Part shown: piece after piece, positions 30,784-64,000 of the stretch
Layout of the letters: every line of letters starts with the position of its first letter
Position numbering within the stretch: the first letter of the stretch is position 1
Assembly (NCBI RefSeq): GCF_964355755.1
Contig: NC_092675.1
Span: forward strand, 1,865,001-1,929,000
From: Antedon mediterranea
Lineage: Eukaryota > Echinodermata > Crinoidea > Comatulida > Antedonidae
Direction: 5' to 3'
Length of the DNA: 64,000 bases
Program-made: the position numbers and the translations under genes
Notes under the pieces: model-generated
The model's database searches: none
What the model was told of the DNA's origin: nothing
What the model saw: the letters and a program-made list of their open reading frames with translations, nothing else

Positions 30784-33700
30784 ATGAAAATCAAAGTAGC
30801 GTCTTTTATCTTGAGTGTCTTGCTGACTTTTGGACCTATTGTTCAGTGTAAACAACGTGAGTTATACTTCTATATTATAATTTCATAGGGCTAGCTAGGA
30901 TAGGCCTAGCCTAGGCCTAGGCCTAGGTCTACACAATTTACCCTTTTGATGCACTGCCGATCAATTACTATGTTCGTAAGTTTGAACCTAGGAAGCCCCA
31001 AGCATACGACTAACAGGGGTGGTGGTGGTGATACAAATTCCTTAGATCCCGTGCACGTGTGATTCGTATATTATTTGTGAATTCTAATTAACTTTTTAAT
31101 TCCAGTTGGTAAGAAATACCCACCATGGGTGAAAGAGCTTCGGAAAGATGCAATGGAGCAAATGAAAGAGTACATATATAACTTCATAGACAATGACATC
31201 GGTGACATTATCGACGATGTAAAGAGCGGAAAGGTACCACCAGAGGATATTCCCGGAAAGCTCAGTCAATATGGTATTTTCCTGGACGCCCCGGGCGAAG
31301 AAATTGCGTCAACTATACGTGAAAAATTCAATGATAATTCAAACAATTTGGAAAAAAATGCCGAGCATAAAGGGATAAATGAGAATAACGAGGTTAAACA
31401 AAGTAGAAAAGATAAAAACGAACGTGTTCAAGAATTAGAAGAAATTGAGAATATAGTGAAAAAAATGGTGAGCGGTGGTGATTCCCCTAAAAAAGATGAT
31501 TTATTGTCCGCAGTAAAAGAGGCGGCATATAAAGGAGATGTGGATGATCCAGAAAAACGAAAAGAAATGTTTGATGTTGTTTACAACTTGATGGATAATG
31601 TCAAAGAGAAACAAACTGATAAAGATGCTATCGGGCGCCTTGTTGACGACAACGACATCGACATGAACAAAAAAGAAAAGCAAGCTTTTGTAAAGAACGG
31701 TGACCTCAGAGAAATGGAAAAGGTATCAAAGGTTGGCATGAGTGATCGTAATGATATAAAGGATTCTTCCTATTATAACTCTAGAAACAGTGACAATGTC
31801 AATAAAGAAGAGACAGATAAGTTAGAAGAAATCGTTAAAGATTCAGTGAAATCTGACGGTGACAATCAAGAACATTTAAAGGAAAAAGAAGATAATCATG
31901 ATGGTTATGATAATGAACGGTTAGAAAAGAAAAGAGATAAAGATGACAAGAAAGATAAAGATATGGAGAAAGAAATCGATGATGATGAGGTAGAAGAGTT
32001 GGAGAACGTCGATTTGGATGAGGAAGAGGAAGATGATGTTGATGAAAAAGATCAAAATGAGCAGCACCAGGGTGACAAGTTGGAAGCATTAGAGAAGAAA
32101 TTGCACGAGGAGCAACAGGAGGAGGATGAACAGGAAGAAGATAATGGAGAAGAACAGAGCGAGAAGCAAGATAAAGAGTTTAAAGATGTAAACGAAAAGA
32201 ATTTGGAAAAGGAAGAAGATGAAGAGAACGAAGAAAAAAGTACAGAGTTAAAAGAAGATGAGGATGATCGTAAAGATAAATCGGAAGAAGGTGATACAAA
32301 AGAGAAGGAAATTAAGCATGGGGAAAACGGGAATGATAAAGAGGAAAAGGAAAAAGAAAAGAAGGGAAAGAAAAAGAAAGACAAAGAAAAGAAAAATAAA
32401 GAAAGAAAAAAGAAGAAAAAACGTAAGAAGAAAGATGATAAAAAAGAGAAACGCAAATCTTCTTCAGATGACAATAACAAGGAAGAAAAGATGAAAATTA
32501 TCGATAAAATAAAGAAAGCTTTTCATCGCAGACGTCAAAGAAGAAACATCGGGGACTCGTTTGATTGTGAAGGTGAAGAAGAGACAAGAAGTCGCACTAT
32601 TCCCGCCGTTACTTACCGTGGAGAAGATCTTCTTCTTCCGTGTGATCAGTGGTAAGAAGCATATTCAACGAATTTTAACTATTAAAAAGTGTTGTAAACT
32701 GTATTGAATAACAAAATAAAGTTAAGCAGTTATCTACATCGTTTGTTGGTTTTTATAACTTGTGATTATTTTGATTATCAATATCACCAAATGATATTTG
32801 ATTTTACACTCGAATACTTTTCTTGAATACCATTTATAAATTATTAAAATGTATTAGCATGAACATTTCAATAAAATGTATGCCTTCATACATGGTTTAA
32901 AAGAAAATTACAATAGAGATACTAGACTATTCCCGTTCGATGTTTTCTAAATTCTAAAAAAAGAAAAAAACAATCCATTATGCCCGTATTAATGTTACTG
33001 TCTCAATTTTGACCATTCTCACTGCGCTCTTGTAATACAAATCCAGTCATACTTCACTTTTTGATTATTCTTCCAATATTCTACTCTGTCTACACTATCA
33101 AACAGACAATCAGACAAAAAAATGTGATGTGCACATGACATGATGATTTCATATCACTACCGTATTTGGGCATATTACTACGATATTTAAGAACATCACA
33201 ATTCTTTGGCCAAACTAGTTTGCTTTATGCTTCCTTAAAATACACAAGCAGCTTTGTCATTGGCTACATGTGGTTTTTGAGTGGTACACAATTTGCATAC
33301 ACAACATAGAGGTGCATAGTGCATAGCACGCACATTCTTATATGCATTTTATTTCTATTGAAGTATCACGGGACCGCAGAAAGCCGGAGTTAAATGGGAG
33401 AGAAAGATAAAGGGCAAAGTGAAGACTATTACATTTGACGACAATGAAGATGAAAGCAAAAACCGTTACATTTTAACACCGTATAATGAACTAATGATAA
33501 AACAAATTAGACTTTCAGAAAAAGGCGTATATTATTGCTGGACTAACAGGTAAATAAATAAATAAGTATCACTTCTAAATGTTACCCGATTCTTTAATAC
33601 TACAATATTTGCCTACTATCATAGGAATATTTGGTAATACTGTCATCTCGTACTTGTATCACATGCAGCGGTGCCTGTACCATGTAATGCTAGTTTAAAG

Positions 33701-40846: not shown

Positions 40847-43800
40847 ATGAGAGCTCTTTTTTATATTACATTATTAGCGTTACCGCTAATTTTTGCTACT
40901 CCTACTAGAAATCGTAGAGATGATAACGATGATAGTGAAGAAAACGGTGCAATAAGAAGGGCTGGAGGTAAGACATAATAATTTTAATTGTGTTATCAAA
41001 TTAATAATTGTTTGCTATCTGGTGGTTGTCATAATACCACCGCACACCTGTAAAACAAGTTGAATACAGTAGTAGTTTTATTCAAATGTTGTCGATATAT
41101 GTTGTCAAGTTAACCAATTGTGATTTAAAAATACATTTTTTATGGATCGTAACAATTAAATTAATAATAATTAATTATCATCAATGCTATAAACATATTT
41201 TTTTGTTATACTACTATTAAAAATCAGTCTGTTATACTTCTTAACATACTGTAGAATTACAATGATGGTCATCACCACTCACATCTATGCCATCAATATT
41301 CATCAGATGGTTATTAAAGGTTGCTCCTATGAAATTCATATTTATTATCTTTATCATGAACCTAATTAGGGTCATAGTTGGAGGCCTTAACTGACACGAA
41401 AGGCATTAGTAAAGCAATTTGATATTTAATAATAAATATAATTCTGTTTCCGTTTTATAAATAAAAATTCATGATTCAACGCAATTGGTCAAATAACGAT
41501 ATAAACAATAATGCACCTGTTCATTGTTTATTCCAAAAAGTGAAACAAAACAACTGTAATTTTACGTCTCTGCAATTATTGTTTTGTTTTGTTTTCGATT
41601 TCAATCAATTTCTTTTATTTCAGAAATATTTCACTATCAAAAGACTAATAATTTACGAAAAGAAAAAACAAATTCGCATCATTTAGGATAGAATTGTTGA
41701 TATTTGTTTTTCCGTTATGTTTTATCTTTGTATGAGACAAGCACTATTATTTCCACTTGTTTTGTGGACGAAATAAAGTTATCTTATAGAATACTTATCT
41801 ATAATGTCTATACGCCATCTACAATGTATTTTTGAGTTATGGAGCATATATTTGCTGTTCTTGTAAATTAGCAGAGAAGATCATATTCGATTAGCTGGTT
41901 AGATACACTTAAACGTTCACATGCACATGTATTGGAACCCACCACTATGTCGATCCGTAACCGACGTGACGCCCATAACAACCCCGTCCCCACTTCACGC
42001 AATTCACAGGATTTGAACCCACCACTGTGTCGATCCGTAACCAAGGTGACGCCCATAACAACCCCGTCCCCACGTCACGCAATTCACAAGATTCGAACCC
42101 ACCACTGTGTTGATCCGGAACCGAGGTGACGCCCATAACAACCCCGTCCCCACGTCACGCAATTCACAAGATTCAAACCCACCACTGTGTCGATCCGTAA
42201 CCGACGTGACGCCCATATCCACGTCCCCACGCCACGCAATTCACAGGATTTGAACCCGTCACTGTGTCGATCCTTAACCGACGTGACTCACATAACAACC
42301 CCGTCCCCACGTCACGCAATTCACAGGATTCGAACCCGTCACTGTGTCGATCCGTAACCGACGTGACGCCCATATCCCCGTCCCCACGCCACGCAATTCA
42401 CAGGATTCGAACCCGCCACTGTGTCGATCCTTAACCGACGTGACGCCCATAACAACCCCACGTCACGCACACAAACGGTGGATGTCTCCTACGTGAGTCC
42501 TATGTCCTAATTTATATTTTATTTGTAAAATCGAAAGCGTCCGACCATATGATGACTCAATTAAAGGATTACAGTTTTCACGCAAAAGGCTGTAATGAAA
42601 GGTTGTAAATTACAAAAACAAAATTACAAAGTTATTTGTGTATGGTTATTTTTTAAGACAGGAATTTTTATTTCAGGCGTGTAATTATAATAGTACATTT
42701 AAATCTTAATTGGAATTTTTTTTATTTTATTTTACGCCTTTGTAGAATAATCTAAGGCTAGAAACATTGTCTACAATTTGTAAAATGCACAGTTTTCCCC
42801 GTATACATTAGACAGTGTAATCTTATAAAAATAGTACGTGATATAGAAACTTTTCTTAAAATATGTATTTGTTGCTTTTACAGGTCAAAGGAATAATCCA
42901 TCATCTTATAGAAAAAGACCAAATTTGAATTCACCGACTAGATATCGTGGCTCAAATGAGAGACAAACGAATCAAAACTCTCAGAATTTTCAGCAACAAC
43001 AAAAACAACGACGACGACAACAACAACGACAACAACAACAACGACAACAACAACAGGTGAATAGAGGAGGAGGGGGGGACGACGACAGCAGTGAAGAAGA
43101 AATAGAGCAGTTTTCCAGTCAATTTAGCATGGGCGTGATTGTAACTAATGAAAGAATAATAAATGAGGTTGCAGCTGGTGGTGACAGTAGTGCAGAAGAA
43201 ACGCAGCAGACTGCGGCAAATGTAGGTGGTGCACAACCAGTTGTTGCTGCTGACGTTGCAGCTGGTGGTGACAGTAGTGCAGAAGGCACGCAGACGACTG
43301 CGGCAAATGTAGGTGGTGCACAACCAGTTGTTGCTGCGGACGTTGCAGCTGGTGGTGACAGTAGTGCAGAAGAAACGCAGCAGACTGCGGCAAATGTAGG
43401 TGGTGCACAACCAGTTGTTGCTGCTGACGTTGCAGCTGGTGGTGACAGTAGTGCAGAAGAAACGCAGCAGACTGCGGCAAATGTAGGTGGTGCACAGCCA
43501 GTTGTTGCTGCTGACGTTGCAGCTGGTGGTGACAGTAGTGCAGAAGACACGCAGAAGACTGCGGAAAATGTAGGTGGTGCACAACCAGTTGTTGCTGCTG
43601 ACGTTGCAGCTGGTGGTGACAGTAGTGCAGAAGACACCGAGCAGACTGCAGCAAATGTAGGTGGTGCACAACCAGTTGTTGCTGCTGACGTTGCAGCTGG
43701 TGGTGACAGTAGTGCAGAAGACACCCAACAGACTGCAGCAAATGTAGGTGGTGCACAACCAGTTGTTGCTGCTGACGTTGCAGCTGGTGGTGACAGTAGT

Positions 43801-46800
43801 GCAGAAGAAACGCAGCAGACTGCGGCAAATGTAGGTGGTGCACAACCAGTTGTTGCTGCTGACGTTGCAGCTGGGGGTGACAGTAGTGCAGAAGAAACGC
43901 AGCAGACTGCGGCAAATGTAGGTGGTGCACAACCAGTTGTTGCTGCTGACGTTGCAGCTGGTGGTGACAGTAGTGCAGAAGAAACGCAACAGACTGCGGA
44001 AAATGTAGGTGGTGCACAACCAGTTGTTGCAGCTGAAGTTGCAGCTGGGGGTGACAGTAGTGCAGAAGAAACGCAACAGACTGCGGAAAATGTAGGTGGT
44101 GCACAACCAGTTGTTGCTGCTGACGTTGCAGCTGGTGGTGACAGTAGTGCAGAAGAAACGCAACAGACTGCGGAAAATGTAGGTGGTGCACAACCAGTTG
44201 TTGAAGGTTCTGATATGGATGATGGTGACAACAGTGCAGAGCAAACAGATGTTGTAAATCCAACACCGTTAGCAGAAATTAAAACGAATAGTCCAGCAAT
44301 TGTTCTCGAACCAACAACACAATCGGTAGAAACAATCGAAAGTACACCTGAAATTATATCTACGTTACCTGTAAAGACCACTCAAAATGAAGAACCAACC
44401 ATAGTCGAAATAGGTACGGTACAATAGCAAATAATAACATTCTCTTCGTTTAAATTGTAACTCCGTAATTGTATTCTGTATAATCATTTTAACTTTAAAG
44501 CTGTATTGTGCCATGAAACACAAAAAACGAAGGTCAAAATATTCTAAATTTAAATTGGCCATATCAAAGTAATATTAAAGTTATTCACTTTAAGTTGAAA
44601 TTTCCAGCCAAAAACAACAAGTTTACGTAATTAACAGGTAAATAAATTTGATTATATTTCGTCTGGAAAATTGTCGCAAGCAAAAGTAAACAAAGATTTG
44701 AAACCACGAGTACACATTATGCATGATGCTAATTAGGATTGTTTACAACTCGTCACGGTTGAAAAGGTGTTTTCACACAGATCGCGAGGAATTTTTATGA
44801 TTATGCATACAGAGTAGGCAAACAAGCGCGTTGCATTATGAGATATGTTTTGATCGAAAAACTTTGTCTGGAAGTCAAAAATTATTTTTTTGAACAAAAA
44901 AACGTCTGTATTTCAGTTAAATAATTTTTTTTCGAATAATTTTTGGTAAAAGTTAATAACTATTATAATACTTCAAAATGACCCACTTTTTTTCGAAATC
45001 TTTTATTGGAATTAGTCAAAGGGACAATACATCTTTACAATATTTGTAAAAAATGTATACGGTTACGTACGCATACTGTATTGAAGTGTCTTTAATTGGA
45101 GAGGCTTTTATTAGAAGGTTTGTGATTTGGAAGATCCTATGATTTTTTTAAAAACCTAAATCATTTTAAAAATACTATTGTATACTTACACATATGTAAT
45201 GTTTTCTTTGTTAAGCTGTGAATAGTAAACCTTCTCGAAGTCCGCAAGGTGAGCCATATATTACATTTTATGTACTTAACTTTTAAAGAATGATTTTATA
45301 AAACAATGGTTATAAGATTAGCCAAGTCATTAATAATAATAATAATAATAATAATGAATCAGTTGATTACTGTAATCCAGCTTTTATATACTATTTAACA
45401 ATGTTCTACAACATGTTTCTATGTCACAATGCTAACGTTTTTAATTACATATCAGAACAATTGAAAAATATTGAATTTTTATTTTTGTTTTAGTGATGCA
45501 GCAAACCGTTACTACATGCGAATGTTATGGTAACATTGACCGACTCACACTGATTTGTGAATACTTTAGTAATGAAACTGAAGCAAACACGTATGCATAA
45601 CTTCTTTATTTAAACATGATATATAGGAAATAGTAATTACATAAACACAGTTATAAACGCCGATGCAAATTAGGGATGATAACAATCTTACATGTTGATT
45701 TTATCAAGTTTCCGGAATTCAATACAAAACCTAAGTGACATTTACACCCACATATTATTTATAATTGAATTATATATTTTCAGTTCATTGGCTTATTGCA
45801 TTGGTGTGAATCCGCTTTAAAAATGTATTATGGATCCTGCCAAAGAATCGAATTTAAACAAAATGTGCCATTGCGAATATTTTAAATTGAGAATATTGTA
45901 ATTAATTGTATTTCGTATTCATGGAATAGTTTCATTGGATACTCAGTTATTTGTTATACGACTTAAGCTCTGTCTACACTATCAAACTTTAGGTCTATGT
46001 AATATATGATATGCCCATATATGGACATGATGATCATGATCATAGCACTACCATATTTAAACATATCGCTACCATATTTGGGCACATCACAAACTAGCCC
46101 TGATTTATCATTTATCATTACTAATGGTTCGGAATCTTTTTTCATTGAAATCGATGCACAACCCAAAAACATAATCCTTGGAGTAGTATATCGTTTGCCT
46201 GAATTATCCATTAACACATTTAATAAAGATATCTCTAATTTAATTGACACCATTAATAATGAGAAAAAAACAGCATATATTTCAGGAGACTTTAATATTA
46301 ACTTGTTAAATTCCAAAACACATAAAGGTACTTCTGATTTTGTTAATACTTTATTTCAATCAAATTATTATCCTCTTATTACTAGGCCAACTAGAATTAC
46401 GCGTAATTCTGCAACTTTAATCGACAATATTTTTTGTAATAATCTATATGATAACATTTCTTCCGGAATTCTATATTCGGACATCTCGGATCACTTTCCT
46501 GTTTTCTTGTTAGTACATAAATCAGAACCTCTCCAACACCTGAAACCTAAATCAAAATATATATACATAAAAAAAGTCAATGATATTTCAATTTCTGCCT
46601 TAAGTAATGATTTGTCAAATGTTGACTGGACTAGTATGTATAACTCCAATGAACCCAATGAGGCATACGCTTTATTCAACGACATATTTAGTACATTATA
46701 TAATAACAACATTAAAACCACTCGTTCCAGACGCAATATTCGGAAAGAAAAAAAACCTTGGATAACTAAATGCTTAATTAAATCTATCGACAAAAAACAC

Positions 46801-49800
46801 AAATTATATAAAACATTTCTTATATCTAAAAAGCAAAAGGACAAAGATAAATATGTTAAATATCGAAATGTACTTACCAAAATCCTTCGTACTGCCCAAA
46901 AGAATTACTTCAGTGACAAATTTGAATTCCATAAAAATAACATCCAAAAAACCTGGCAAACAATAAATGGAGTCCTTGGCAAGAAATCTCGTAAACCGTT
47001 TCCTTCTCACTTTATTAACAATGACATTGAATTAAATAATCCTCAACAAATTGCAACTGAATTCAATAATTATTTTACTAGTATAGGGCCAAATTTAGTT
47101 AACAAAATACATGTGTCGGATAATGATAATTATACTTCTACCCTACCTCGTCCATGTGTGCACTCTCTCTTTCTTAGTCCTGTAACCGAACATGAAGTTG
47201 TCAGTATAATACTTTCCCTCAAAGATAATAAATCTCCTGGGTTTGATGGGTTTTCCAATAAAATTATTAAACGTGTTTCTAATTTTATATGCAAACCCTT
47301 AACTCACATTTTTAATACTTCTTTTCAAACCGGTATTTTTCCTGATTCTTTTAAAATAGCTAAAGTCATCCCTATCTACAAGAAAGAAGATCCTCATCAT
47401 TTCAATAACTACAGACCAATCTCCCTACTTCCTTGTTTCTCAAAATTAATTGAAAAAATAATGCATAATCGAATTTCTTCCTTTTTAACTAAACATAACA
47501 TTTTATTTAAAGGCCAATATGGTTTCAGGAAAAAGTATTCAACAGATCTTGCTTTATTAGATATTTTTGACAAAATTACAATTGCCCTGAGTAAAAATGA
47601 GTTTTCTGTTGGCATTTTCCTTGATTTATCTAAGGCCTTCGATACTATTAACCACGATATTTTAATTCATAAACTTTCAAATTACGGTATCAGAGGCCTT
47701 CCTTTAAAACTAATTAAAAGCTACCTTTCCAATCGTGTTCAGTTTACTTCCTTAAATAATTTTAACTCTTCCTATTCCCGTTTAACCTGTGGTGTTCCCC
47801 AAGGATCGATTCTTGGACCACTCTTATTCCTGATTTTTGTTAACGATATACCAAACAGCTCTAAATTACTAAATTTTATCTTATTTGCTGACGACACAAA
47901 TATTTTTTTCTCTCATCCTAAATTAAATACCTTGTTTAAAATTGTCAATGATGAGCTACTTAAAGTTTCAAATTGGCTCAAACACAATAAATTAACTCTT
48001 AATACATTCAAAACGAACTATATAATATTTTCTAAACGTAAAATTTCAAATTCTTTAAATGAACAAATATACATTGATAATAAAATGATCAAACGAGTTA
48101 ATGAAACCCAATTTTTAGGAGTAACCATAGATGCCTCTCTGACTTGGAAACTACATATAAATAAAATCAGTAATCTAGTTTCTAGAAATGTTGGAATATT
48201 GAACAAATTAAAACATATCTTCCCTCAAAAAACCTTATTAACCCTTTATAATACTTTAGTTTTGCCTTACCTTTCTTATGCCAATTTATGTTGGGCAATT
48301 ACTCTAGATAAATTTAATACGTTATGCCCCTGGACAAGTCTAGAGAAAACTCAAATTGACCGCCTTTTTAAACTACAAAAACGTGCACTTCGGATTTGCG
48401 CGGGAGAATCATTTAGAGCCCATACAAAATTACTTTTTAAAAGATTTAACGTTTTAAACATTTATGATTTAAATAAATTACAAGTTGCCTCATTTATGTA
48501 CCGTTTATCTAACAATTTACTGCCTTCACATTTTAATGCTTTATTTACAAGAATTGACGAACGCCATTCCTATAAAACCCGATCCTCTGTTAACAATTAT
48601 ATCCTTGATAATTTAAATGTTAAGGCTCGACGATTTTCTATGTATTATTTTGGTCCCAAACTTTGGACTTCACTCTCAAATGAACTTAAACAGAAATCTT
48701 CCTTTTCTAGTTTTAAATCTAATTTCAAACACAAAATGGTGTCAGAATATGCTACATAAATTTTCGCCGATCTTTTATCCTTATTTATTTGGTGGTGATA
48801 CATGGCATTAAATCCTTCACCCTGGTATTCAATAATCTCCGCTACATTGTATCGTTATACTTGTTATTATACCATATTTAATTATATTTCATATTGTACT
48901 CTAATTGTTATCATTATCCCTTTTATCATATATTATATAATTGCCTGGTTTATCTTAACTTCTATAATTTAAATTTTTTTTTATTTCTTTATTTTATGTA
49001 CTTTCACTATTATATATTTATATTTTAGTCTACTCTGTAGCAATGTTAGTATACTTAGGCATACGGGAGTCACGACTTAAAGTTCAGTGAACTTACTGTG
49101 ACTTCCATCCACCCACATTTAATATATGTTATGTTATGTAAATGTAAATGATATATATATATATATATATATATATAAGTGAGTGGAAAAAATAAATAAA
49201 CGAAACGAAACGAATAGTGTAGACAGACATAAAGGCCTGTTTTCAACTATGAGAATTTGTTTATAAATATAGAAAGCATCAGTTTATACGCATGCGTATT
49301 CATACTTTCATCCTCAACGAATTCTAGTTTCTTGAGGCTTTCGCTTCATGCTCCAATTCAATTACAAGCGCAACGCAACTGATTTGACCAATCGCAAGCG
49401 ACAGTTCAGGTGATCCTTCGCTTGCGATTGGTCAACTCATTTGCGTTACAATTACGTCCTTTGCGTTGCATCCAAGTAGGAACCAAACTTTAACATGAAC
49501 ATGTTGTGCAGTAAATATTTAATTCTCATTTTAGTGTTTTCAAAGCTGAGTCATCAAATCCTGATCTTGCGTTTTGCTGCGAAGAAGAATCATTTCCTGC
49601 AATTGCCCGCTTAAGATGTCTTCAAGATAGAAACGATCCTATTCCAGGTAGGATTGGATTAACCTACAACTTGTAAACAAGTGGGACGTGTGCAACTATG
49701 TTTTTTACATGATGCACTCAATACAATAACATAAATGTGTTTCATTAATCATCGAATAGAGAAAATACATATGCGTTTTAAAGTTTGCTTTCAAAATCAA

Positions 49801-52800
49801 TGGTTATTTTTCCTGGATTTTTGGTAGGAAATAGAGGATTATAGTTATGTTACCCATCGGATATTATTAAACTATAAATACAGTAATTTAAACAGAAGCT
49901 AACTGTCTTGCGGTAATACAATGCATAAAACATATTTCCTCGTGATATCCTGCATTATGAGAAGTAGGCTTATAACACTTTTCCTGATATTGTTAGCCTA
50001 TGTGGGAATTTCCTGATGTTCATGATAGAACATAGTCTGTTAATTGTTTTCGGGAATTTCATGGTTTCTTGATTTTACTGTTTCGTTTTTGTTCTCTGTG
50101 TATGTAGGTCATTTATTTGACTGTCTTAATAGAAAATGAATTTAATTTCAACCTAAAATATGTAATATGTATTTACAGTTTCTACTCCGACTCCAGCAAT
50201 TATTCAAAACGACACTCCATTTACATGTACTTGTTCAGGACAGATTAAGGGCGGCATCGTGTAAGTTTCTAATACATACATTGAAATGATAAAAACAATG
50301 AGGGAAACAATCATAATGATATTTTTTTTAAATGAAATCTTCTAACGCTTAACTTGGAACCAACAAATTGATTTTATTTTGCTCTAAGTTTAACGTTTGA
50401 AGATTTTATTTTTCATTCGAAAAAAATATGTAGACCTATTTTTACGGTTAGGTGGTAAATTATACAAGTAGCCGTACATAATATATTTATACTGATGGTC
50501 ACTGATGGCCAGTTGATTCGCTCGCCACATGGCCGGTGTTCACTAAAACAAAATACGGTCAGTCGAAAATAACAACGCTTTGACATTTTTACTTTGCGTG
50601 TGATTGACAATGTATTGCCTTTTCATGTCCTCAAATTTACCCCAATCATTGTGGTGGCCTTTTCGATCGATTTGCACCTAATAAAAAGAATGACTGGCTT
50701 GAATATCTTAATATTTCCAATGTCTGATGGCACGTACACTTGTGGAATATGCAATTCATCGGAATTTGTTTATAATATAATAGTGTTAATTCATTAATTT
50801 CTCTTTATTTCGGACTTCATAACCATAGCATAAACATGCCGACATAATACACAAAAGCTACTCAACAATCTCGACAACAAACCGTTTACATTTAGATAAT
50901 TCCATTTTAAAGTTTCAAATCAACTAATTATACAAACCAGCAATAATTTTAATATCAACAATTATATACTTTTTTTGAGGTACAAATATTAATTGTGTCT
51001 ATCTCTGATATAAAGGCAAATAAAAAAAAAACTTGTTTTGACATTTTTAAAAATAGGGCTTTACCATTATTTGTTATAGATCTTTTAAATGCGATTTCAA
51101 GTCTCTTGGAACAGATTCCACGTAAGTACAAATTGTAGGGTAAATTATTTCAGTTATTTAATATTTTATTAAGAATTTATAACTTTTTAATTTATTGTAT
51201 TTACTTTACCTCTATAATGTGGTATTGTATTGTAAGCCATATATCCCATAATTATAATTTGCATATCTAAACATTATAGTCAAGTATACGCACCTTCATG
51301 TCGGAGTGTTAGCTAAGAGTTAGCTGTTTTCCTCTTTTGTTTTTTCCTCTTTTGTGGCGTAAACACCAATTTTATTTCATTTTCAAATATTTTAAAGGGA
51401 GTACTCGGTAACTTCTGAAAACACAGTCATCATTGACTGCTGTAACCCAAGCGAAGGAAAATACAACTATGCAGAAACATTGCAGTGCCTAAAGAATGAA
51501 GACCCACAAGCAGGTTTGATGTTATTAAGCTTAAGCTCTGTTTACACTACTTTTACAAAAAGTAGGATGTGCCCAAATATGGAGTAATATGATACCATCA
51601 TGTCCATATATATCACATTTTGTTGTCACATACAGTTTGATAGTGTAGACAAGACATTAATCTTACATTTCAATCGCCAAGCCTTTCTTCCAAACCAAAG
51701 TACGTTGTCCATAGTGACTTACTAGGCCTACTTACCTCACCCAGCCTAAATATATTCGTAACACAAGTACAATCCATTTCCAATGCCATTTTCTGACTTT
51801 TTCACTTATCACATTAATTTCTTTAATATATCAATATAAAGTGGCTCAAAGACACTGATCCCGTGATATATTGTAAGCTCCCTGATTTCCTTTTGATTGT
51901 CATACGATGACGTTGGTAATGCGTATACTTTTTAATTTTGTGTGTAGGTGAAATACAAGAACTACCTACAAATTCACCGTATGCATGTGGTTGTTCCTAC
52001 GACTACCGACAAGGCCAAAGGTAAGTTTTAAATGACTTTTTTAATTTGTTACAATATATATGTTTCATCCTAATGATAGATTATTGTCAACGTAATAGCA
52101 AATAATGGTAAAGGATAGAATGTTAATATTCTATTCATCATGTTTAAACAAATTATAGTATTAAATACAGTTAGAATAGGAACATTAATAATAGTTTATA
52201 TTTATAATATCTATATTTTGATTATTAAAACCTTGTTCTTTGCAGATTTTACAAATGTAGTTTTAAAGGCGAATTCAAGCATGACGGGAAAAATCTTTTG
52301 TAAGTTTATTTATAAATGCAGCTAAATATAGAATCTTACATCCAATCATAATTGGCAACATAATATTTGTGTTTGTTTTCTTTAGAGAATTCGATGTTAC
52401 AACACGAGATTCAGCCGTGCAAGTTTGCTGTAGCCATGAGAAGAACTTCAAAGAATCTGTAGAATGTCTGAGAAAGGTGCAAAACGAGACAGGTAAAAAA
52501 ATCGCTTATGTTTTGGTAATCAATGTTAGTAGGAACAACTTCGTATCTACCCTCTTCGGTTCTCGTGGTCCATAAGGCTGCAGTGGCAATTTTCCAGTTG
52601 GTTCTATCATAGGAACAAGTATAATTAGACTAAATACAGTATTATGTTATTTTTATGTCAGAGAAGAAATGTGTATGTTCAATATACCTGTTTACTAACT
52701 TTGTTGCAGTTAGGTTTCTGTAATACCTTTGCTGTATTTGTTGTTGTTTCAGATTATGAAGACTCATTGGTTTCAACTGGCGATCGTGGTAAGTGACATC

Positions 52801-55800
52801 GTTAGTAATGTCAAAAGTTCCTTTGACAACGAATTGCTCATTTACTATACACATTAAGTGATTAAAATGCACCGCAAGACTAACCATTATCTGAAAACCT
52901 AAATAAGAATATTTGTATAAATATTTACATGACCAACACATTATTCCATAGGTGATATTCCACAGTCTCCAAACAATTTTATCGATCAATACGTTTGTGA
53001 CTGCACGCCAAAGCAGCTTCTTAACGGGTAAAAATCAACGTTTTCATAATTATTAGTACAGTTTGTTTAAGGTTTAGTTCTACTCACAATTCATACAATA
53101 ACAGTATAAAGTTATAACGAATTACTGAATTGGTAACAGAATATTTATTCAAATTCAGCATCAAGTCATTTGGTAAATAAGCTTCCAAAGAATAATACGC
53201 AATTATTGTCAACTTTAAGTGATCTAGATTTTCTTCTATTTCGGATCAATATTTCTGTAATATCGGTCAGTTCCAAACTATGGTCTTTCATTATGTTGTT
53301 CTGGGTTTTCCATTCAAGATGAAACGTCTCATATTATGTTTGCGAATAAAGAATAGATAGGCCTAAATATAAACTATATACTCTTCTTGTTTATTTCTAG
53401 GGAGACTTACTACGAATGTGTTTTTCAGAGTGATTTTGGAACGTCTAAATAGTAAGTTTGATTAATATAACCTTTGTGTACAACAACGGTGATACTGATT
53501 CCTACATCTGCTATCCAAATAAGTTGTTAAAATTCATAATGATTTAATTCATAATATGTATTTAGATTATAAGTCAAAAAAAGAATTCCGGTTTAATTCT
53601 CGCTTAGGAATGTGAACAAAAACATCATGATATGTCGCATTGTGTTGAATTATCCGTCGCAATCAAAAGCAAGAAAATGGAAACGTTAATGTTAGCACAA
53701 ACGTATATCATGGCGTTGATACACTAATTAAACACGTAATTAGAATGGTATGTATTATATTTCAATTTTATATCTACTTGATTTCACTTTTAACTTTTTT
53801 TAAACATTAGTAATTTTACCAAAACATCAGCATCGAGTGATATCGTGTTGTGTTGCAGTACTATAGTTTATACGGAACAAGAGGTTATTGATCGAGTCAA
53901 ATGCTTGACGGAAAAGGAAGATTTTACTCCTTCAGGTATTAATTAATGGTATTTTGATTATTGCAACGAAATAATTATGTAACAATATTATATTACTGTA
54001 TAATTAATGACATTATTGCCAAAATCAACAGTAATATGATTGTTAAGGTTTTGATAGGTATTTTGTTGATATGGTTACCAAAAGTACAGTAGAACGTCTT
54101 CGGAATCCAAAATGGTGTCTCCTTCATAAATTCCTCGATTCTTCACGTGAATTGGGTTCATCTTTACTGTTTAACATTGTCCTCGTTCCTTTCACAGGAA
54201 TGTTTCTCCTTAAAAGTGGTGTCCCAAAGTATGGGTTATATTGTATATTATAATATACCAAAAGAAACACTACAAATGTTATTATAAGTAATGATATTCA
54301 GGTAACGACATAAACATAATGATCGATTTGTTTGACAACTTTAACCTTTTCATAGGATCACCAAACACATTCGATTTTGTCGATGTAGATCCGAATGAGA
54401 TTGACACTGCTGGAACTGGCCATTCTGTATCACCAAGTAGTAGTTCGCTGGGACCCAGTGGATCCAGTAATTCGTCACAAACTGGATCTATGTCAGAAAC
54501 AGTAGGTGGATCGCCTATCATTTCTCCACCAGGAACAAGTGGCGTATCTGGATCAGGTAATTCATCTGGATCAGGTGCATCTGGAAGTGGTTCTTCATCG
54601 GAATCAGGTGTATCTGGAAGTGGTTCTTCATCTGGACCAGGAAGCGGAACGTCGTCAGGAACTTCTGGTAGTTCAATGGGAACGGGAATGTCAGGGGCGG
54701 GTTTTGTTACTGGAGGAACTTCATCTGGAAATGTGTCTGCTTCAGGGAGTTCCATGGGATCAGGAGGAAATGCAGCAGGTGGTAGTGGAGTTTCAGGATC
54801 CAGTGGTGCATCAGGAACATTCGGTGTCAGTGCATCAGGAACTAACATAGTATCCGGGAATAGTGGATTTGAAAATGGATTTAGATGCCAATGTTCGTAC
54901 AATAATGTGTAAGCTGTTCATATAATAAAAAAAAAAACATAATTAACAAATACTATTTTATTATTTTATTCATTTCGGCAATAAACATAAATAATAATTA
55001 CAAAAAACATAAAAATATATATATATATATATATGAAAAACAAGACACGAGGCCGAGGAAAGACAAAAGCATTAAACAAACGCTGTCACCGGTAAGGTGT
55101 GTCTCTCCAACACATAAATAACAAAACACAAAATCTTTAGATAAGGTCAAAGTTCAGTTTACCTTCACCAGTACAGAAACGGTTTAAAACGTAATACCTG
55201 CACAACATATAACACACTTCTTATCTTTTAATTTTAGATACTACAAATGTGAATTAGAGGAGGAAGGAAGTGATCGGTATGTGAACTATTTAATTAGCTA
55301 TTTTCTACTAAATACCTCCTTCTAAACATGAACATATCATTGCTTTAAATGATTTAATACCTCACTTAAATTCTAAAAAAAAACCTCATTATTTTTAATT
55401 ATTTAAATTTCCAATTTACAGATACTTTACAAGGAATACCTCGTCTCCAGGAATACAGCAATGTTGTGGTGCACAATACATCCTATCAAGTTTACAGGAC
55501 AGAATCAACTGCTTTTCATCATTTAAGAGTTGTACGTATATCTTAACGTTTAACTTTGCTATAAAGAGTAGTATGTCATTATAGTAGACTACATTTTTAA
55601 CAACTTTTATCTCGTCAGGGTCAGGTAGTGATGCAGGGACTGATGGAACAGGAATCAGTTTAGGCAATACCACTGTCATTTCTACAATTGAAGGTAGAGG
55701 ATCAGGGGGTACTGGCCTAGGTACAGGTACGGGGAGTACTGGAAGTAGTTCAGGCAGCACTGGCACTGGTATTTCTATTGATGGAGGTAGAGGAGCAGGG

Positions 55801-58800
55801 AGTACTGGAAGTAGTTCAGGTGGTGGCACGGGTGGAGCAGGATTTATATTTAGAAATGGAACAGGCTTTAATTTTCTCGATACAAACAGCTCTTCTACAG
55901 GAGGATCTTTTCAGTCCAGCCAATGTTCATGCAAAATTGGTTTAGTCGGCTCAAGCAGGTAATTGATTATAGATTAACATTTTGTTTTCAAAATAAAAAA
56001 AGTTGAGAATTCTTGACCGGTCTTCAGAAGTAATTTGATTTATTAGTAAGATTTAACATCTTTATCAGTGGCGCAACGTAGGTTTAGCACATGTGTGCGC
56101 CAACGCTGGGTATACACGTTGCAAAGCGCTAAACAATTTTTGAAACTAGAATTGCGCCATGAGCAATGACTGTTGGAATGGCGCTATATGAATCAAACGA
56201 TTGATTGATTCTTGAAGCAAACTATATATTAAAAAATAGTTGTTAAATCATTTCAAAAAAGTAAAGCATAAAGTTAGGTATTCAATTGCAAAATAAAATG
56301 GGCTAATAACATAATGTGTTGGCATCTGGGGATAACATAATTATATATTTTTTTATTATTCTATTTTCAGTGTCTTTTCTTGTTTATATTCCATTGGAAC
56401 CGGAGAGGAAGAGACGTAAGCATTGTTTGTTAATATTCAGTTTTAAATAGTCATTTATAGAAAACCAGGGCTTTCTTTTGTAAAACAATTTTCTTTAATT
56501 TGATAAACAATCCGCAATTACATTAATTCGTTAACAGCTTAAGTAAAATCTGATATTGTTACGACAATTATAAAAACCCAACGAATGAACATTATTGTTC
56601 AAAAGAAAAGGAAAATAGAATATTGACTCTAATTTAATATGTATCTGTTAATCAATTCAGTAGGTCTAATGAAAAGCGGAAAATAATTTCGTAAATTCAC
56701 GCTTTTTCAGTGAATTTCAAATGAAGTCAACGGACCAGCGTATCATTCAGTGCTGTACTCAAATCGGTGGTGACATGCTTTCCTGCTTTCAGAGCTACAA
56801 TTCCACTGCTATTGAAGCCGGAGTATCAGGTACAGGTTTCTCTAGCCTTGGTGCTTCTGGTTCTAGCACTTCTGGTTCTCGGACCTTTAGTACAGGTAGT
56901 ACTGGTACTGGTATGACTGGTTCCCGGACCTTTAGTACAGGTAGTAGTGGTACTGGCATGACTGATATGACTGGTTTCGGAGTTTCGCCAAGTTCAACTG
57001 GAAATGGATTTAACTTTCTAAGAAATGGAAACTTCTCAGCTGAAAATTTTGAAGGAAATGAATGTAGCTGCCAGAGCAGTCAAATCAACGGCCAGAAGTA
57101 AGATTTTTAAAATATAACATATATAACATTATATGGCATTTTACAACATTATATTGTAATTAGAATTAAGAAATAACACTAGACGTTTTAAAAATTCCTA
57201 TTATCTATTATATTTGATTGTTTATATCTTTCCTTCTCAGAATTTACAAATGCAACATCACTTTTACGGTAGATAACAAACCTACGTAAGTTATCATTAT
57301 AAACATTCTATTTCACTACAAAGTTCACTACAAATTTCACTACAAATTGTATTATAAACGATCACTAATCATTGCAATGAAATGTAACATCGTGCGCTAC
57401 TGCTTTTAGTGATTTAACGCACATTTGTGGTATATTTTACATTTAGAAAATTTGGAGCACAATCGTCTTCAAAAGAAATATTTGAATGCTGTTCTACAAC
57501 GCTACCGATCGACTCACGTGTTGATTGTCTTCTAGCGATAGAGAGCAACCTCGCCAATTCACCTGATGGTATAGTACTATTTGCTACTAAAATGAAGCTT
57601 TCTCTGAATAGTTTCACAGTTTATATAATTAGAAAGATATATAATGACATTTATACTTTCTATACAGAAACGTGGGTTTTCCAAAATTATATATATAGGC
57701 TAAATTGTTATCAAAATTGAGCTAACTCATGTAATGAACGTTCGTCATTATAGAAACAATATCCGATAAGTAATAATATCGATTTAATTAACTTAAGATT
57801 GGTTCCCACTAGAACGTAACGCAAGGACGTAAACGCAACGCAAGCGTTTTAACCAATGACAAGCGAAGTTATAGACAGTTAGCAATCACAAGCGAATAAG
57901 CCATCGCTTGTGATTGGTAAATTCACTTGCGTTGCGTTACGTCCTTGCGTTGCGTCGCTAGTGGGAACCACGCTTAAGTGTATCTTTTTGGAAACGAATA
58001 AAAAAATTGTCATTCATGTCACTTAGCATAGCTAACTATATTGCTTCTAACTTGTGTAGGCAACGTGAATCGTGAGTCTGGGTATTTAAGCGATCGAGTT
58101 GGTTTAAGCAAGTCCGTCAAAGAACCAATCAAGACTTCAGATAGTACAACTCTGGTTCCATCGGCAAAAGCGATCCAGGTAAATATTAATATTTTTTAAA
58201 TTGTTTTTTAAACAATAAAACAATAATGTGTAATACACAATATCATATAAAATTACTATAATGATGTTTGTTGTTTTTAGGAATGGCAAGAGCATTCGCC
58301 AGGTAGTAAAATCGACGAAATGTCATCAGAAATTGTGATTAAAGGTGGACTTTATACGGCGGAAGATTTTATGAAACATACAGACGATTCAACGCAACCT
58401 GAGGTAATTTTTATACAACAAAATCGATTACCTAACATATTTCCAGTGGCGTAACGCAGAGGCATGAGTCTCCTGGTTTAGAAACTCTAATTGGCCCTCC
58501 AACGCTAGAGGCCTTGGATGTTTTTAGCCCTTTTCGACATATTTCAATGCCTGTTTTTTCCCCTGGATACTGCTCAGGTCCCCATAAGCTCCGGGTCCCC
58601 TGGGTCTAGCCAGAGAGCGCTCATAGCCGTTACGCCACTACCTATTCCATTATTTTTTTTATTCAAGAGCCGTGTTACTATGTCTAGTCATAGTAAAAAT
58701 GTAAGCCAGAAAGATTATTGTTTTGACCAAAACGCCAGTAATAATATCGTTATTATTCTTTTGATTGTTGTCGGTATATCTCATTTTAGCTTTCAAACAC

Positions 58801-59855
58801 AGTACAGTTGATGAAACAGACATGCGCAAGAATTGTTGATACAACTAATAATACAGATGGCAGTATATTACACACGATAGATAAAGTAAGTATAATTCAT
58901 GTTCGAAGACATTTTCTAAAGCTCTGTCTACACTATCAAAATAGTTTGACAAAAAAGTGTGATGGGATAAATATGGTAGTGATATGCCCAAATATGGTAG
59001 TGATATGATATCATCATGTCCATATATGGGCACATCACATTTTTTTGTAACATAAAGTTTGATAGTGTAGACAGAGCTTCAGAATGTAAGCCTAGCTACC
59101 TTATTATGCGAAATGTATGACGTGTTTTGTACGCATGCTCTCATTCTTCAATCAATTCATGTGACAGTACAATGGTTTAATAACACAATTTCTTAAATTC
59201 AGGTACTGCAAGCGCCACAATTGGAAGTCTACGATACTATCTCCCGAGATGACCGGTTTTCAACTTTAATCAGCCTAATAAACAATTTTGATGACGTAAA
59301 AGAAATATTGAATCGTGACGATGTTACGTTTTTGGCGCCAACCAACGATGCCTTCGCGAAGTTTAAAAATGTAGAAGATATGACGAGAGATGAGCAAAGA
59401 AGGGTACTTCTCTACCATATTGTAAACAGTAAGTTAAATAAAGTTATTGCTATTATTTAAATTATTATCAAAAAATGTGATGTTTCCAAATATGGTAGTG
59501 ATATGCCCAAATATGGTAGTGATATGACATCATCATGTCCATATATGGGCACATCACATTTTTTGTCACATGAGGTTTGATAGTGTAGACAGAGCTCTAG
59601 GCTAATAATTACCGGAAATGCTACAGTATTAAAATATGAATATTAATATCAAATTGTTTATCATTTTTAGGGAGACAATGTTGCGACGAATTTGTTCCAC
59701 CAATATTCCCAGGTAGAAAGATGACTGCGGTTGGTGAAACTGTCTTAGTTCAACGTGTACGCAGCGGTTACGGAGCCGTAAACCGATCAAGAATTACGGA
59801 ATGTGATATTACAGCGACGAACGGTGTTATTCATATAATAAATGCAGTTCTTTAA
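40847..59855 (+). CDS. Secreted mosaic matrix-like protein: acidic repeats, seven six-Cys modules, two FAS1 domains; 28 exons
   Basis: Exons: 40847-40967, 42884-44413, 45216-45248, 45494-45590, 49535-49647, 50179-50260, 51080-51121, 51398-51513, 51948-52020, 52246-52299, 52386-52492, 52753-52788, 52952-53027, 53401-53451, 53811-53935, 54356-54908, 55238-55276, 55422-55531, 55619-55958, 56371-56415, 56711-57097, 57241-57285, 57447-57568, 58060-58178, 58281-58403, 58790-58885, 59203-59428 and 59671-59855. The total is 5046 nt, 1681 aa, with phase consistent at every junction. Order: signal peptide (MRALFYITLLALPLIFA), acidic then Gln/Arg-rich stretch, twelve 29-aa repeats, seven six-Cys modules (about residues 560-1430) with Ser/Gly/Thr-rich linkers before modules 5, 6 and 7, then two FAS1 domains (about 1433-1681). 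The second FAS1 is clear (TFLAPTNDAFAKF, LLYHIVN, TNGVIHIINAVL-stop). There is no transmembrane helix. FAS1 proteins are extracellular adhesion or matrix proteins; a matrix or adhesive role here is inferred. No orthologue is recognised. Confidence 0.85.
41935..42475. repeat. 80-bp tandem array, seven copies, with a tRNA-like B box
   Basis: CGATCC landmarks fall at 41951, 42031, 42111, 42191, 42268, 42348 and 42425, so the unit is 80 bp with two 77-bp variants. Each unit contains TCACAGGATTCGAACCCACC, whose complement GGGTTCGAATCC fits the pol III B-box / T-arm consensus. It lies in intron 1 of the mosaic-protein gene. Short minus-strand open frames here are repeat artefacts. Confidence 0.9.
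43168..44211 (+). repeat. Coding minisatellite: twelve 87-bp units (29-aa acidic repeats)
   Basis: Each unit encodes VAAGGDSSAEETQQTAANVG followed by GAQPVVAAD, with changes confined to a few sites (EETQQ/EDTQK/EGTQT, AAN/AEN). Codons are kept almost identical between units, pointing to recent expansion or homogenisation. The repeats are acidic and lack Cys and aromatic residues. Long open frames on the minus strand across this tract are artefacts of its 3n periodicity. Confidence 0.97.
44497..45037. mobile_element. MITE family B, long copy (mosaic-gene intron 2)
   Basis: Left TAAAGCTGTATTGTGCCATG, right AAAGGGACAATACATCTTTA, with AAAGTTAATAACTATTATAA inside. At about 540 bp it is longer than the 16303 copy and carries unrelated central sequence. 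Confidence 0.55.
45963..46097. mobile_element. MITE family A, left part, split by a LINE
   Basis: TTAAGCTCTGTCTACACTAT through GGGCACATCACAAACTAG matches the family up to its 3' quarter. The missing right end appears 3.1 kb downstream at 49214-49232, on the far side of the LINE. Confidence 0.88.
46098..49213 (+). mobile_element. Non-LTR retrotransposon (CR1/Jockey-type LINE), 5'-truncated, ORF intact
   Basis: About 3.1 kb. One uninterrupted frame ends at TAA 48757-48759. It starts inside the apurinic-type endonuclease (LGVVYRLPE, SGDFNINLL, SDISDHFPVF) and continues through the reverse transcriptase: KVIPIYKKEDPHHFNNYRPI, YGFRKKYSTDLALLD, LSKAFDTINHDIL, GVPQGSILGPLLF and the catalytic FADDT. 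The C-terminal region includes LKHIFPQKTLLTLYNT and YYFGPKLWTSL. The 3' end is AT-rich, with a (TA)n run and AATAAATAAACGAAACGAAA. The first half of the endonuclease and any ORF1 are missing. The lack of stops implies recent insertion. It lies in intron 4 of the mosaic-protein gene, in the same orientation. The apparent start at 46006 is inside the disrupted MITE and is not the element's own. Confidence 0.9.
49214..49232. mobile_element. MITE family A, right part, displaced by the LINE
   Basis: ATAGTGTAGACAGACATAA resumes the family's right TIR directly after the LINE's A-rich tail, completing the copy begun at 45963. Confidence 0.8.
49355..49485. mobile_element. MITE family C, diverged copy
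   Basis: CAAGCGCAACGCAACTGATT and GACCAATCGCAAGCGACAGT are inverted as TTCGCTTGCGATTGGTCAAC and TTGCGTTACAATTACGTCCT, ending AGTAGGAACCA. It lies about 50 bases upstream of exon 5 of the mosaic-protein gene. Confidence 0.65.
51531..51660. mobile_element. MITE family A, eroded copy (mosaic-gene intron 8)
   Basis: TTAAGCTCTGTTTACACTAC at the left and AGTTTGATAGTGTAGACAAG at the right. It starts 18 bases after the exon-8 donor. Confidence 0.82.
57800..57970. mobile_element. MITE family C, intact copy
   Basis: TGGTTCCCACTAGAACGTAA at the left is inverted as CGTCGCTAGTGGGAACCA at the right. Longer internal arms (CGTAACGCAAGGACGTAAAC / TTGCGTTACGTCCTTGCGTT; ACCAATGACAAGCGA / TCGCTTGTGATTGGT) make almost the whole 171 bp one hairpin. 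Mosaic-gene intron 23. Confidence 0.85.
58917..59079. mobile_element. MITE family A, complete copy upstream of mosaic-gene exon 27
   Basis: TAAAGCTCTGTCTACACTAT and AAGTTTGATAGTGTAGACAG are both intact, with two CAAATATGGTAGTGATATG-type blocks. It ends about 120 bases before exon 27. Confidence 0.92.
59468..59597. mobile_element. MITE family A, left-truncated copy downstream of exon 27
   Basis: It starts inside the element (ATCAAAAAATGTGATGTTTC) and keeps CCATATATGGGCACATCACA and the right TIR GTTTGATAGTGTAGACAGAG. It begins about 40 bases after the exon-27 donor. Confidence 0.87.
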
Positions 59856-61637: not shown

Positions 61638-63823
61638 ATGAATTTGCAGACAGTGTTTATTTTGGTCAGTTGTCTGTGGGCTACAGTAGGACCTGCTGTA
61701 AAGTTAGTTGTAGCAGGCGACCAGGAAATTGGATCAAGTAGTACGGAAACTGGGGTAAGTGTGTGAGCTAGCCTTAAATCGCACTCGGAACACTATCGAA
61801 TTTAACATTAAGCTACATTTATTTAGCTACATGGTATTTATCTAACATATTTAATCGTTATTTTCTCTATTAATTTATATTATGTTAATGTTTTAGTTAA
61901 TGTAGGCATATTCATAATTGAAAAGTACTAAAACAGATTTTCATTTATATCCTTAAATACCGGTAAACTTATTTAAAAAAGGATGAGAAAGAAATATAAT
62001 ATTGTAACGCAGTTTGTTTCGGGTTGTGGGTGGTATGGGTGGTGCCTGGATTATTGTGTTGTGTTTTTTGGTGTGTTTATCATGTGTGATTTTCATTGCA
62101 ATTTTGGTTTGATTAACTTGAAGCTTTCTTAAATCATGGAGGAAATATATCTGTATGTATTTTCTCCATGCTTAAATTTTCCTTTAATTTTGTAATGGTT
62201 GGTTTTTTCAATGTTGTCAAATGCCACTTCACTGATATCAGTGTTCTATGTCCAAATGAAAATAATTACATGCTATTATTCAGAAACAATTACCAACTAT
62301 GATGCTTTTATTGTTCCACATTCTGAACATCAATGTTATTAACACTATTTTAGTAATGCCAATATATTACAATTTATGTAAAACACGAACAGTGATTACA
62401 CGAAAACAACTAATCATTAATATCTAGCTGCTAAGTAAGATTGAATGTTAATAATGATTTAAATAGAATTTTAGTGCACTTGTCATATTGACGGAAATGA
62501 CCAAAACTAAAAAAAACCCTGATAAAATCGTGTAATAATAGTTATTGACCTTGAGAATACCATCATGTCATATTTCTTTTCTATCTATCCGACCAAAAAT
62601 AATAATCAAATTTGCTTATAAAAGATCCTAATAATATAAATAAATATAGAAATAAAATGATACTTATAATGACAAAATAAATAAATAAATAAATAAATGA
62701 AACTATAATCATAACCTGCTAAACCACTGGGAATTAAGAAACTAAATTTTAAATGCATTTTACCATGACCGGTGAAGGGCAAACCCGTCTGATAGTATCT
62801 TTAAAAAAAAATGGCGAATTCCATTGAGTTGGATTTTATCATCTAGGCCTATAGTTTCGCTCTCGATCCCAACACCAGTCGTAGGCCTATACGCACAAGT
62901 GTTGAGCATAAGCTTAAGATAGGGCTTAATTCGAATTGGTTAGGTCTACTGGAACAGTGCAACACAGCAAGTTAAATAATATTCACGACTCACTGCCCAT
63001 ATAACATTTTTCATAATATAATTAATTAATCAATAAAATATGACGTCACAATAAATAAATCTAGTATAATAATGTGGACGAACGAACTTTGTAAAGCAAA
63101 TGATTGTTTTTTTTAACGTGACTCGAAATGTCACGCAATATGTATCCTTTTTGGATGAAGTCCAACGGATTCAACCAGCATCTGCCAATTCAGTTAGTCA
63201 ACCCATGATCTGTTTCTTTTCATCTGTAACATTATACGCTGGTGACAATCTATCAGTTTTATTTTCTTTCATATTTACTTTATTGTTCCTATTTGTTTGT
63301 TCCATTTCTGCTGACCTCATACAACTTTGTGAAACATGCGAAGAGAGTAGAGTGTGAACTAGAGGACTGGAAATGACATGTCACGAGTTAACTTAATAGT
63401 CATAGAAATATTATATAAACTCTCTGATGCAATCAATTTATACAATTTCACAAATACAGGTATGATAAAAGTCAATGATTTACATAATACTATAACACTT
63501 TTTTTCCCAGAAAATATTCTGGAGACAAAAGAATTTTAACCGTAGACAATCGAATAATCTGAGATATGGATTACGGATTGATAGTCGTAGCAGTAGCAGT
63601 AGTTCAAAAGAAGTATTAAATGTTCAAAGGAATTTCATCAAAATCCGAAATCGGCCGGTAAACAGTATTTCAAGACACGGTACACCAGAGAAAGGTGTTC
63701 ACCCTTCTCTGGGACAACGAACTCACATAAAGAGAACAACACAAAAACCGAATACGTTATACGAATACGTTCACACTACAACCAATTCACTCTCTCCTGC
63801 TACAAACCATGCCGCCCGAAAAG
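61638..63823 (+). CDS. Secreted basic protein, first two exons; continues beyond the window
   Basis: Exon 1 (61638-61754, 39 codons, phase 0 donor GTAAGT) encodes a signal peptide (MNLQTVFILVSCLWATVGPA) followed by VKLVVAGDQEIGSSSTETG. Exon 2 (63511-63823, after a TTTTTTTCCCAG acceptor, phase 1 donor GTATGA) adds 104 open codons rich in Arg, Lys, Asn, Ser and Thr, including SRSSSSSSKE and GVHPSLGQRTHIKRTTQKPN. No domain is recognised. The layout (signal-peptide exon, long first intron, low-complexity exon ending in phase 1) resembles the start of the mosaic gene at 40847, its upstream neighbour on the same strand, so a tandem relative is possible. The rest lies past base 64000. Confidence 0.6.
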
Positions 63824-64000
63824 GTATGATTTTCCATTTTAAGCGATTTTAGCAATAACATCTTCCTTTCTGTATTTTTTTGGCTTATAATTGGTCACCA
63901 ACAACTGAAGCGCATTGTAAATTTTACATAGTTAAGTCAAGGTTTTGCGTGGGATATTGATGTCATTACAAAATCACGCGTATGGCTGATGAGATTGGTA

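Follow-up and report, generated by a model that had tools for sequence, protein, structure and literature searches.

A series of 28 exons on the forward strand (positions 40847-59855) of the window analysed here, a 64,000 nt stretch of DNA from the crinoid Antedon mediterranea, raises the questions of whether these exons form one gene, what kind of protein such a mosaic would be, and how it came to be assembled. When the splice sites are placed independently the exons join into a reading frame of 1681 aa with no internal stops and with every junction in phase, and this reproduces exactly the phase-consistent 28-exon model proposed in an earlier, sequence-only reading of the same DNA. Coding scores were calculated with a table of 1056 codons taken from other genes (tektins, the FAS1 exons of a neighbouring gene, another FAS1 gene and a collagen/C1q-like ORF), and p values were obtained for the 24 exons with fewer than 240 nt by comparison with introns of the same gene. 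These are 0.04 or lower in 19 of the 24, and lie between 0.04 and 0.17 for exons 3, 7, 9, 10 and 22; exons 7 and 9 are marginal (p=0.06 and p=0.04, respectively) and exons 3, 10 and 22 score most weakly (p 0.15-0.17, with exon 3 at 0.15). The four longest exons, which carry no p value, have strong coding scores in the true frame. Exons 7, 9, 10 and 22 all contain the conserved motif of the cysteine module described below, so that real doubt is left for the 33 nt exon 3 only. For a number of the short exons, as well as for the Ser/Gly-rich exon 16, an alternative frame slightly outscores the true one; in exon 16 the conserved module residues in the last part of the exon settle the true frame.

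The weakness of exon 3 bears on the possibility that two or more genes have been joined wrongly, with exons 1 and 2 encoding a short acidic repeat protein and the cysteine modules and FAS1 domains belonging to a separate gene. Polyadenylation-like words (ATTAAA/AATAAA) are present at 44574 and 44641, and exon 2, if left unspliced, would meet a stop codon no more than 14 nt past its donor and yield a protein ending in VEIGTVQ. However, AATAAA-like words are frequent in the surrounding AT-rich DNA, the exon 2 donor is among the top 1.7% of GT sites, the phases agree throughout, and nothing seen upstream of exon 4 looks like a start codon followed by a signal peptide; the same facts would also fit with a short alternative isoform of a single gene. 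The donor of exon 1 (GAG/gtaaga) is among the top 0.5% of GT sites. We consider a false join to be quite improbable, and the single-gene model is well supported and, as far as such predictions reach, real. The features of this gene are listed in Table 1.

Table 1. Features of the 28-exon gene and of its downstream neighbour (positions are those of the window)
Feature	Position	Strand	Evidence or remark
Exon 1: start codon, putative signal peptide MRALFYITLLALPLIFA, start of mature protein	40847..40967	+	Coding p=0.001; donor
Exon 2: Gln/Arg-rich stretch, acidic DDDSSEEE stretch, twelve 29-aa repeats VAAGGDSSAEETQQTAANVGGAQPVVAAD	42884..44413	+	
Exon 3: linker exon, 33 nt, phase 1-1, least certain	45216..45248	+	Coding p=0.15
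M1 (exons 4-5)	45494-45590, 49535-49647	+	LINE in intervening intron
M2 (exons 6-8)	50179..51513	+	Exon phases 1-2, 2-2, 2-1
M3 (exons 9-11)	51948..52492	+	Module profile
Exon 12: 36 nt, phase 1-1, contributes to RGD	52753..52788	+	Coding p=0.002
M4 (exons 13-15)	52952..53935	+	Module profile
Ser/Gly-rich linker 1 (most of exon 16)	54356..54867	+	Of 171 residues, 56 are Ser and 45 Gly
M5 (end of exon 16, exons 17-18)	54868..55531	+	Module profile
Ser/Gly/Thr-rich linker 2 (most of exon 19)	55619..55908	+	
M6 (end of exon 19, exon 20, start of exon 21)	55909..56804	+	Module profile
Ser/Gly/Thr-rich linker 3 (middle of exon 21)	56805..57050	+	
M7 (end of exon 21, exons 22-23)	57051..57568	+	Module profile
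FAS1-1, divergent (exons 24-26)	58060..58885	+	Pfam Fasciclin 23.3 bits, E 8.1e-5
FAS1-2 and stop codon (exons 27-28)	59203..59855	+	Pfam Fasciclin 76.4 bits, E 2.8e-21; PF02469 genome scan
Neighbouring EGF and FAS1-pair gene, probable start	61638..64000 (L007:1639-8793)	+	Signal-peptide-like exon; EGF/FAS1 exons beyond window

Several repetitive elements lie within the introns. Intron 1 contains a tandem array (41931-42459) of 6.7 copies of an 80 bp unit with 89% match, and the unit includes GATTCGAACCC, which resembles a reverse-complement tRNA B-box; the array may be derived from a tRNA-related SINE. Intron 4 harbours a non-LTR retrotransposon (LINE) on the same strand as the gene, with an open frame of 917 aa (46006-48759) that has endonuclease and reverse transcriptase motifs. 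A short recurring element (CATCATGTCCATATATGGGCACATCAC...TTTGATAGTGTAGACAGAGC), apparently a MITE, is found at 46000-46070, 51550-51640, 58950-59080 and 59490-59600, in several introns of the 28-exon gene, and also near the exons of its neighbour. Elsewhere in the window there is a single-exon ORF of 365 aa (10172-11269, reverse strand) with a match of 36.7 bits to 7tm_7, a family of chemosensory (gustatory-like) receptors, an ORF on the reverse strand with an immunoglobulin-like (I-set) domain (29305-29790), and, upstream of the 28-exon gene, a 508-aa ORF with extreme Asp/Glu/Lys content (31129-32655). Tektin from this genome scores 295 bits against the chain of PDB entry 8snb, from sea urchin sperm doublet microtubules, and 158 bits against mammalian tektin-4, a difference that makes an echinoderm origin likely.

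The predicted protein begins with a putative signal peptide, judged from its sequence, and continues into a strongly acidic region (pI 4.05 for residues 18-560, and 4.3 for the whole protein). The acidic 29-aa repeats noted earlier are indeed present, as twelve in-frame copies in exon 2 that form an array of 87 bp units at about 43168-44211 with 96% matching. Departures from the repeat consensus comprise 11 synonymous and 13 non-synonymous changes, a rate ratio of about 0.4, and this pattern is consistent with translation and with recent amplification. There are 18 S-x-E motifs in residues 1-560, as compared with a mean of 3.5 after shuffling, and 12 of the 18 represent one motif that was amplified along with the repeat; the excess is thus largely a single motif copied 12 times. 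Acidic composition and S-x-E sites are both present, as they are in SIBLING-like phosphoproteins. An RGD sequence is located at residues 801-803, in the linker between modules M3 and M4, and is encoded by the last 4 nt of exon 12 and the first 5 nt of exon 13; since 0.39 occurrences are expected by chance in a protein of the same composition, we regard it as suggestive only. A transcript without exon 12 would stay in frame but lose the RGD.

The central part of the protein is dominated by seven six-cysteine modules, which account for 42 of its 46 cysteines and conform to the consensus C-x-C-x(8-13)-C-x(22-27)-CC-x(9-15)-C. With leave-one-out profiles each module scores 23-42 bits, which is reached by none of 1000 full shuffles and by none of 1000 shuffles in which the cysteines were held fixed, and by this measure the seven are homologous, beyond the cysteines alone. 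All seven are split by introns. M2, M3 and M4 each correspond to an exon triplet with the phases 1-2, 2-2 and 2-1, M1 lacks the first inner intron, and M5-M7 keep both inner introns but have their ends fused to linkers. The phases of these exons indicate that the basic unit is a phase-1-to-phase-1 cassette, which is the usual class among shuffled extracellular modules.

The inability of the sequence-only reading to assign this module to a family is borne out by searches of Pfam, of PDB sequences and of the genome. No Pfam family matched the modules, and the module profile found no matches among PDB sequences at E<=10, even though periostin and TGFBI chains are included in that set. A search of the 354 Mb genome with the concatenated modules revealed no convincing second locus by an exon-by-exon approach that can miss weak matches, and the weak matches away from the gene (E 0.5-4.5) lack the module pattern when their sequences are inspected. 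It could be argued that the module is a divergent form of a known domain, notably of EMI/CROPT, the domain located N-terminal to the FAS1 domains of periostin and TGFBI. EMI/CROPT domains likewise contain six cysteines, including an adjacent CC pair and a last cysteine after it, and EMI carries a CC-Pro-Gly signature. That signature is absent from the module, the first two cysteines of which are separated by one residue, and the EMI family in Pfam gives no module match at E<=1; the PDB search, with its periostin and TGFBI chains, points in the same direction. The position of CROPT ahead of the FAS1 domains is similar (PMC6032426), but taken together these observations make a divergent EMI/CROPT domain rather unlikely. 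The one EMI match in the genome is on a different chromosome from the 28-exon gene. We favour the reading that the module belongs to no Pfam family.

The remainder of the protein likewise agrees with what had been described. Three Ser/Gly-rich linkers separate or flank the later modules, and the C-terminus is a FAS1 pair in which both domains exceed the Pfam Fasciclin (PF02469) cut-off of 22 bits. The best PDB matches of the pair are the C-terminal FAS1 domains of periostin and TGFBI. Few FAS1 exons were found elsewhere in the genome, these being in the neighbouring gene, in a multi-FAS1 gene on C7 and in one on C9; no other genome match was found for the FAS1 tail or for the N-terminal part, and the six-cysteine module is not seen around the other FAS1 genes in the stretches inspected.

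The neighbouring gene, which is new here, probably explains the origin of the mosaic. Its probable start (61638) is about 1.8 kb past the stop codon of the 28-exon gene, and besides a signal-peptide-like exon it has EGF repeats and a FAS1 pair, with its FAS1 exons about 6.8 kb past that stop codon (L007). The five FAS1 exons of the two genes are in the same order with all phases equal, their paired lengths are 119/119, 123/180, 96/96, 226/238 and 185/215 nt, and the FAS1 pairs share 28% identity over 173 columns. The matching order and phases, the two exact lengths and the sequence identity together indicate that the FAS1 pair is a shared, tandemly duplicated cassette. This cassette starts at a phase-1 intron and is preceded by EGF exons in the neighbour and by six-cysteine modules in the 28-exon gene. 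Exon shuffling at this intron, in either direction, would probably account for the mosaic: a FAS1-pair gene would have been duplicated, and different modules joined upstream of the two copies.

Comparison with known FAS1 proteins places this gene close to several of them. Adhesion proteins carry tandem FAS1 domains; periostin and TGFBI have a cysteine-rich domain (CROPT) ahead of theirs, TGFBI contains an RGD sequence, and stabilins combine EGF and FAS1 domains, with seven FAS1 domains and an X-link domain (PMC6032426). Like periostin and TGFBI, the protein is probably secreted and has a cysteine-rich part before its tandem FAS1 domains, with the RGD shared with TGFBI; unlike them, with their single CROPT/EMI and four FAS1 domains, it has two FAS1 domains and no EMI/CROPT match. 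We know of no acidic repeats, cysteine-module arrays or Ser/Gly strings in periostin or TGFBI. It resembles stabilins and other EGF-FAS1 proteins, including its neighbour, in having an array of small cysteine-rich modules before a tandem FAS1 pair, but with the six-cysteine module where those proteins have EGF modules. The cysteine region gives no Pfam match to EGF, no X-link match was found in the stretches scanned outside the Ser/Gly linkers, and no transmembrane segment of the stabilin kind is present, the gene stopping right after FAS1-2. In its acidic low-complexity region, its repeated S-x-E motifs and its RGD the protein recalls the SIBLING type, although SIBLINGs have, to our knowledge, neither FAS1 domains nor cysteine modules. 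The protein is, on the comparisons made, a new arrangement around a known domain (FAS1), with a cysteine module matching no Pfam family; the earlier impression that it is undescribed holds as far as Pfam, PDB sequences, the animal's own genome and searchable papers reach, with animal protein collections lying outside the comparison.

The reading that best accommodates these features, to which we give a probability of roughly 0.6, is that the gene encodes a secreted, acidic and adhesive extracellular-matrix glycoprotein that is probably lineage-specific, tethers or organises the matrix, and has a FAS1 part related to those of periostin, TGFBI and stabilins. The adhesive or matrix role put forward previously follows from the FAS1 domains and is modestly strengthened by the RGD and the acidic S-x-E repeats; mineral association, which was raised with it, is something that we only infer. 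In such a molecule the disulphide-bonded modules would act as stiff beads along flexible Ser/Gly strings, and the FAS1 pair, perhaps helped by the RGD, could attach to integrins or to further proteins of the matrix, much as periostin, TGFBI and stabilins do. The repeated S-x-E sites might be phosphorylated by a Fam20C-type secretory kinase and the acidic N-terminus might bind calcium or mineral surfaces; the molecule would tether cells to a matrix, or organise that matrix, which may be skeletal.

Long repeats, Ser/Gly strings, numerous cysteines and FAS1 domains are also compatible with secreted adhesives, and the protein could instead form part of a secreted adhesive or mucus (of the tube foot, the arm or larval attachment) and have no place in a structural or skeletal matrix. 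In its main text, however, the catalogue of sea star footprint proteins makes no mention of fasciclin, FAS1, periostin or ig-h3, and we consider this alternative unlikely. More broadly, FAS1 proteins are not named in the main texts of three papers on echinoderm skeletons and footprints (PMC7351957, PMC5460417 and PMC9382459); the skeletal proteome of the sea star does include a stabilin-2-like protein (PMC5460417), which is closer in architecture to the neighbour than to the 28-exon gene. For the matrix glycoprotein that we prefer, a skeletal role is plausible. We advance only tentatively the stronger and rather doubtful proposal that the six-cysteine module represents a novel family of extracellular domains confined to one echinoderm lineage and that the protein is a skeletal-matrix component, combining a module array in place of EGF repeats, a duplicated FAS1 pair and a phosphorylatable acidic repeat.

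In summary, this locus offers what would be a clear case of a matrix protein built by phase-1 exon shuffling and lying next to a paralogue of its own, and its seven homologous repeats define a six-cysteine module that is absent from Pfam. Should the protein prove to be skeletal, it could be counted among candidates for the rapidly changing, lineage-specific fraction of echinoderm skeletal matrices.
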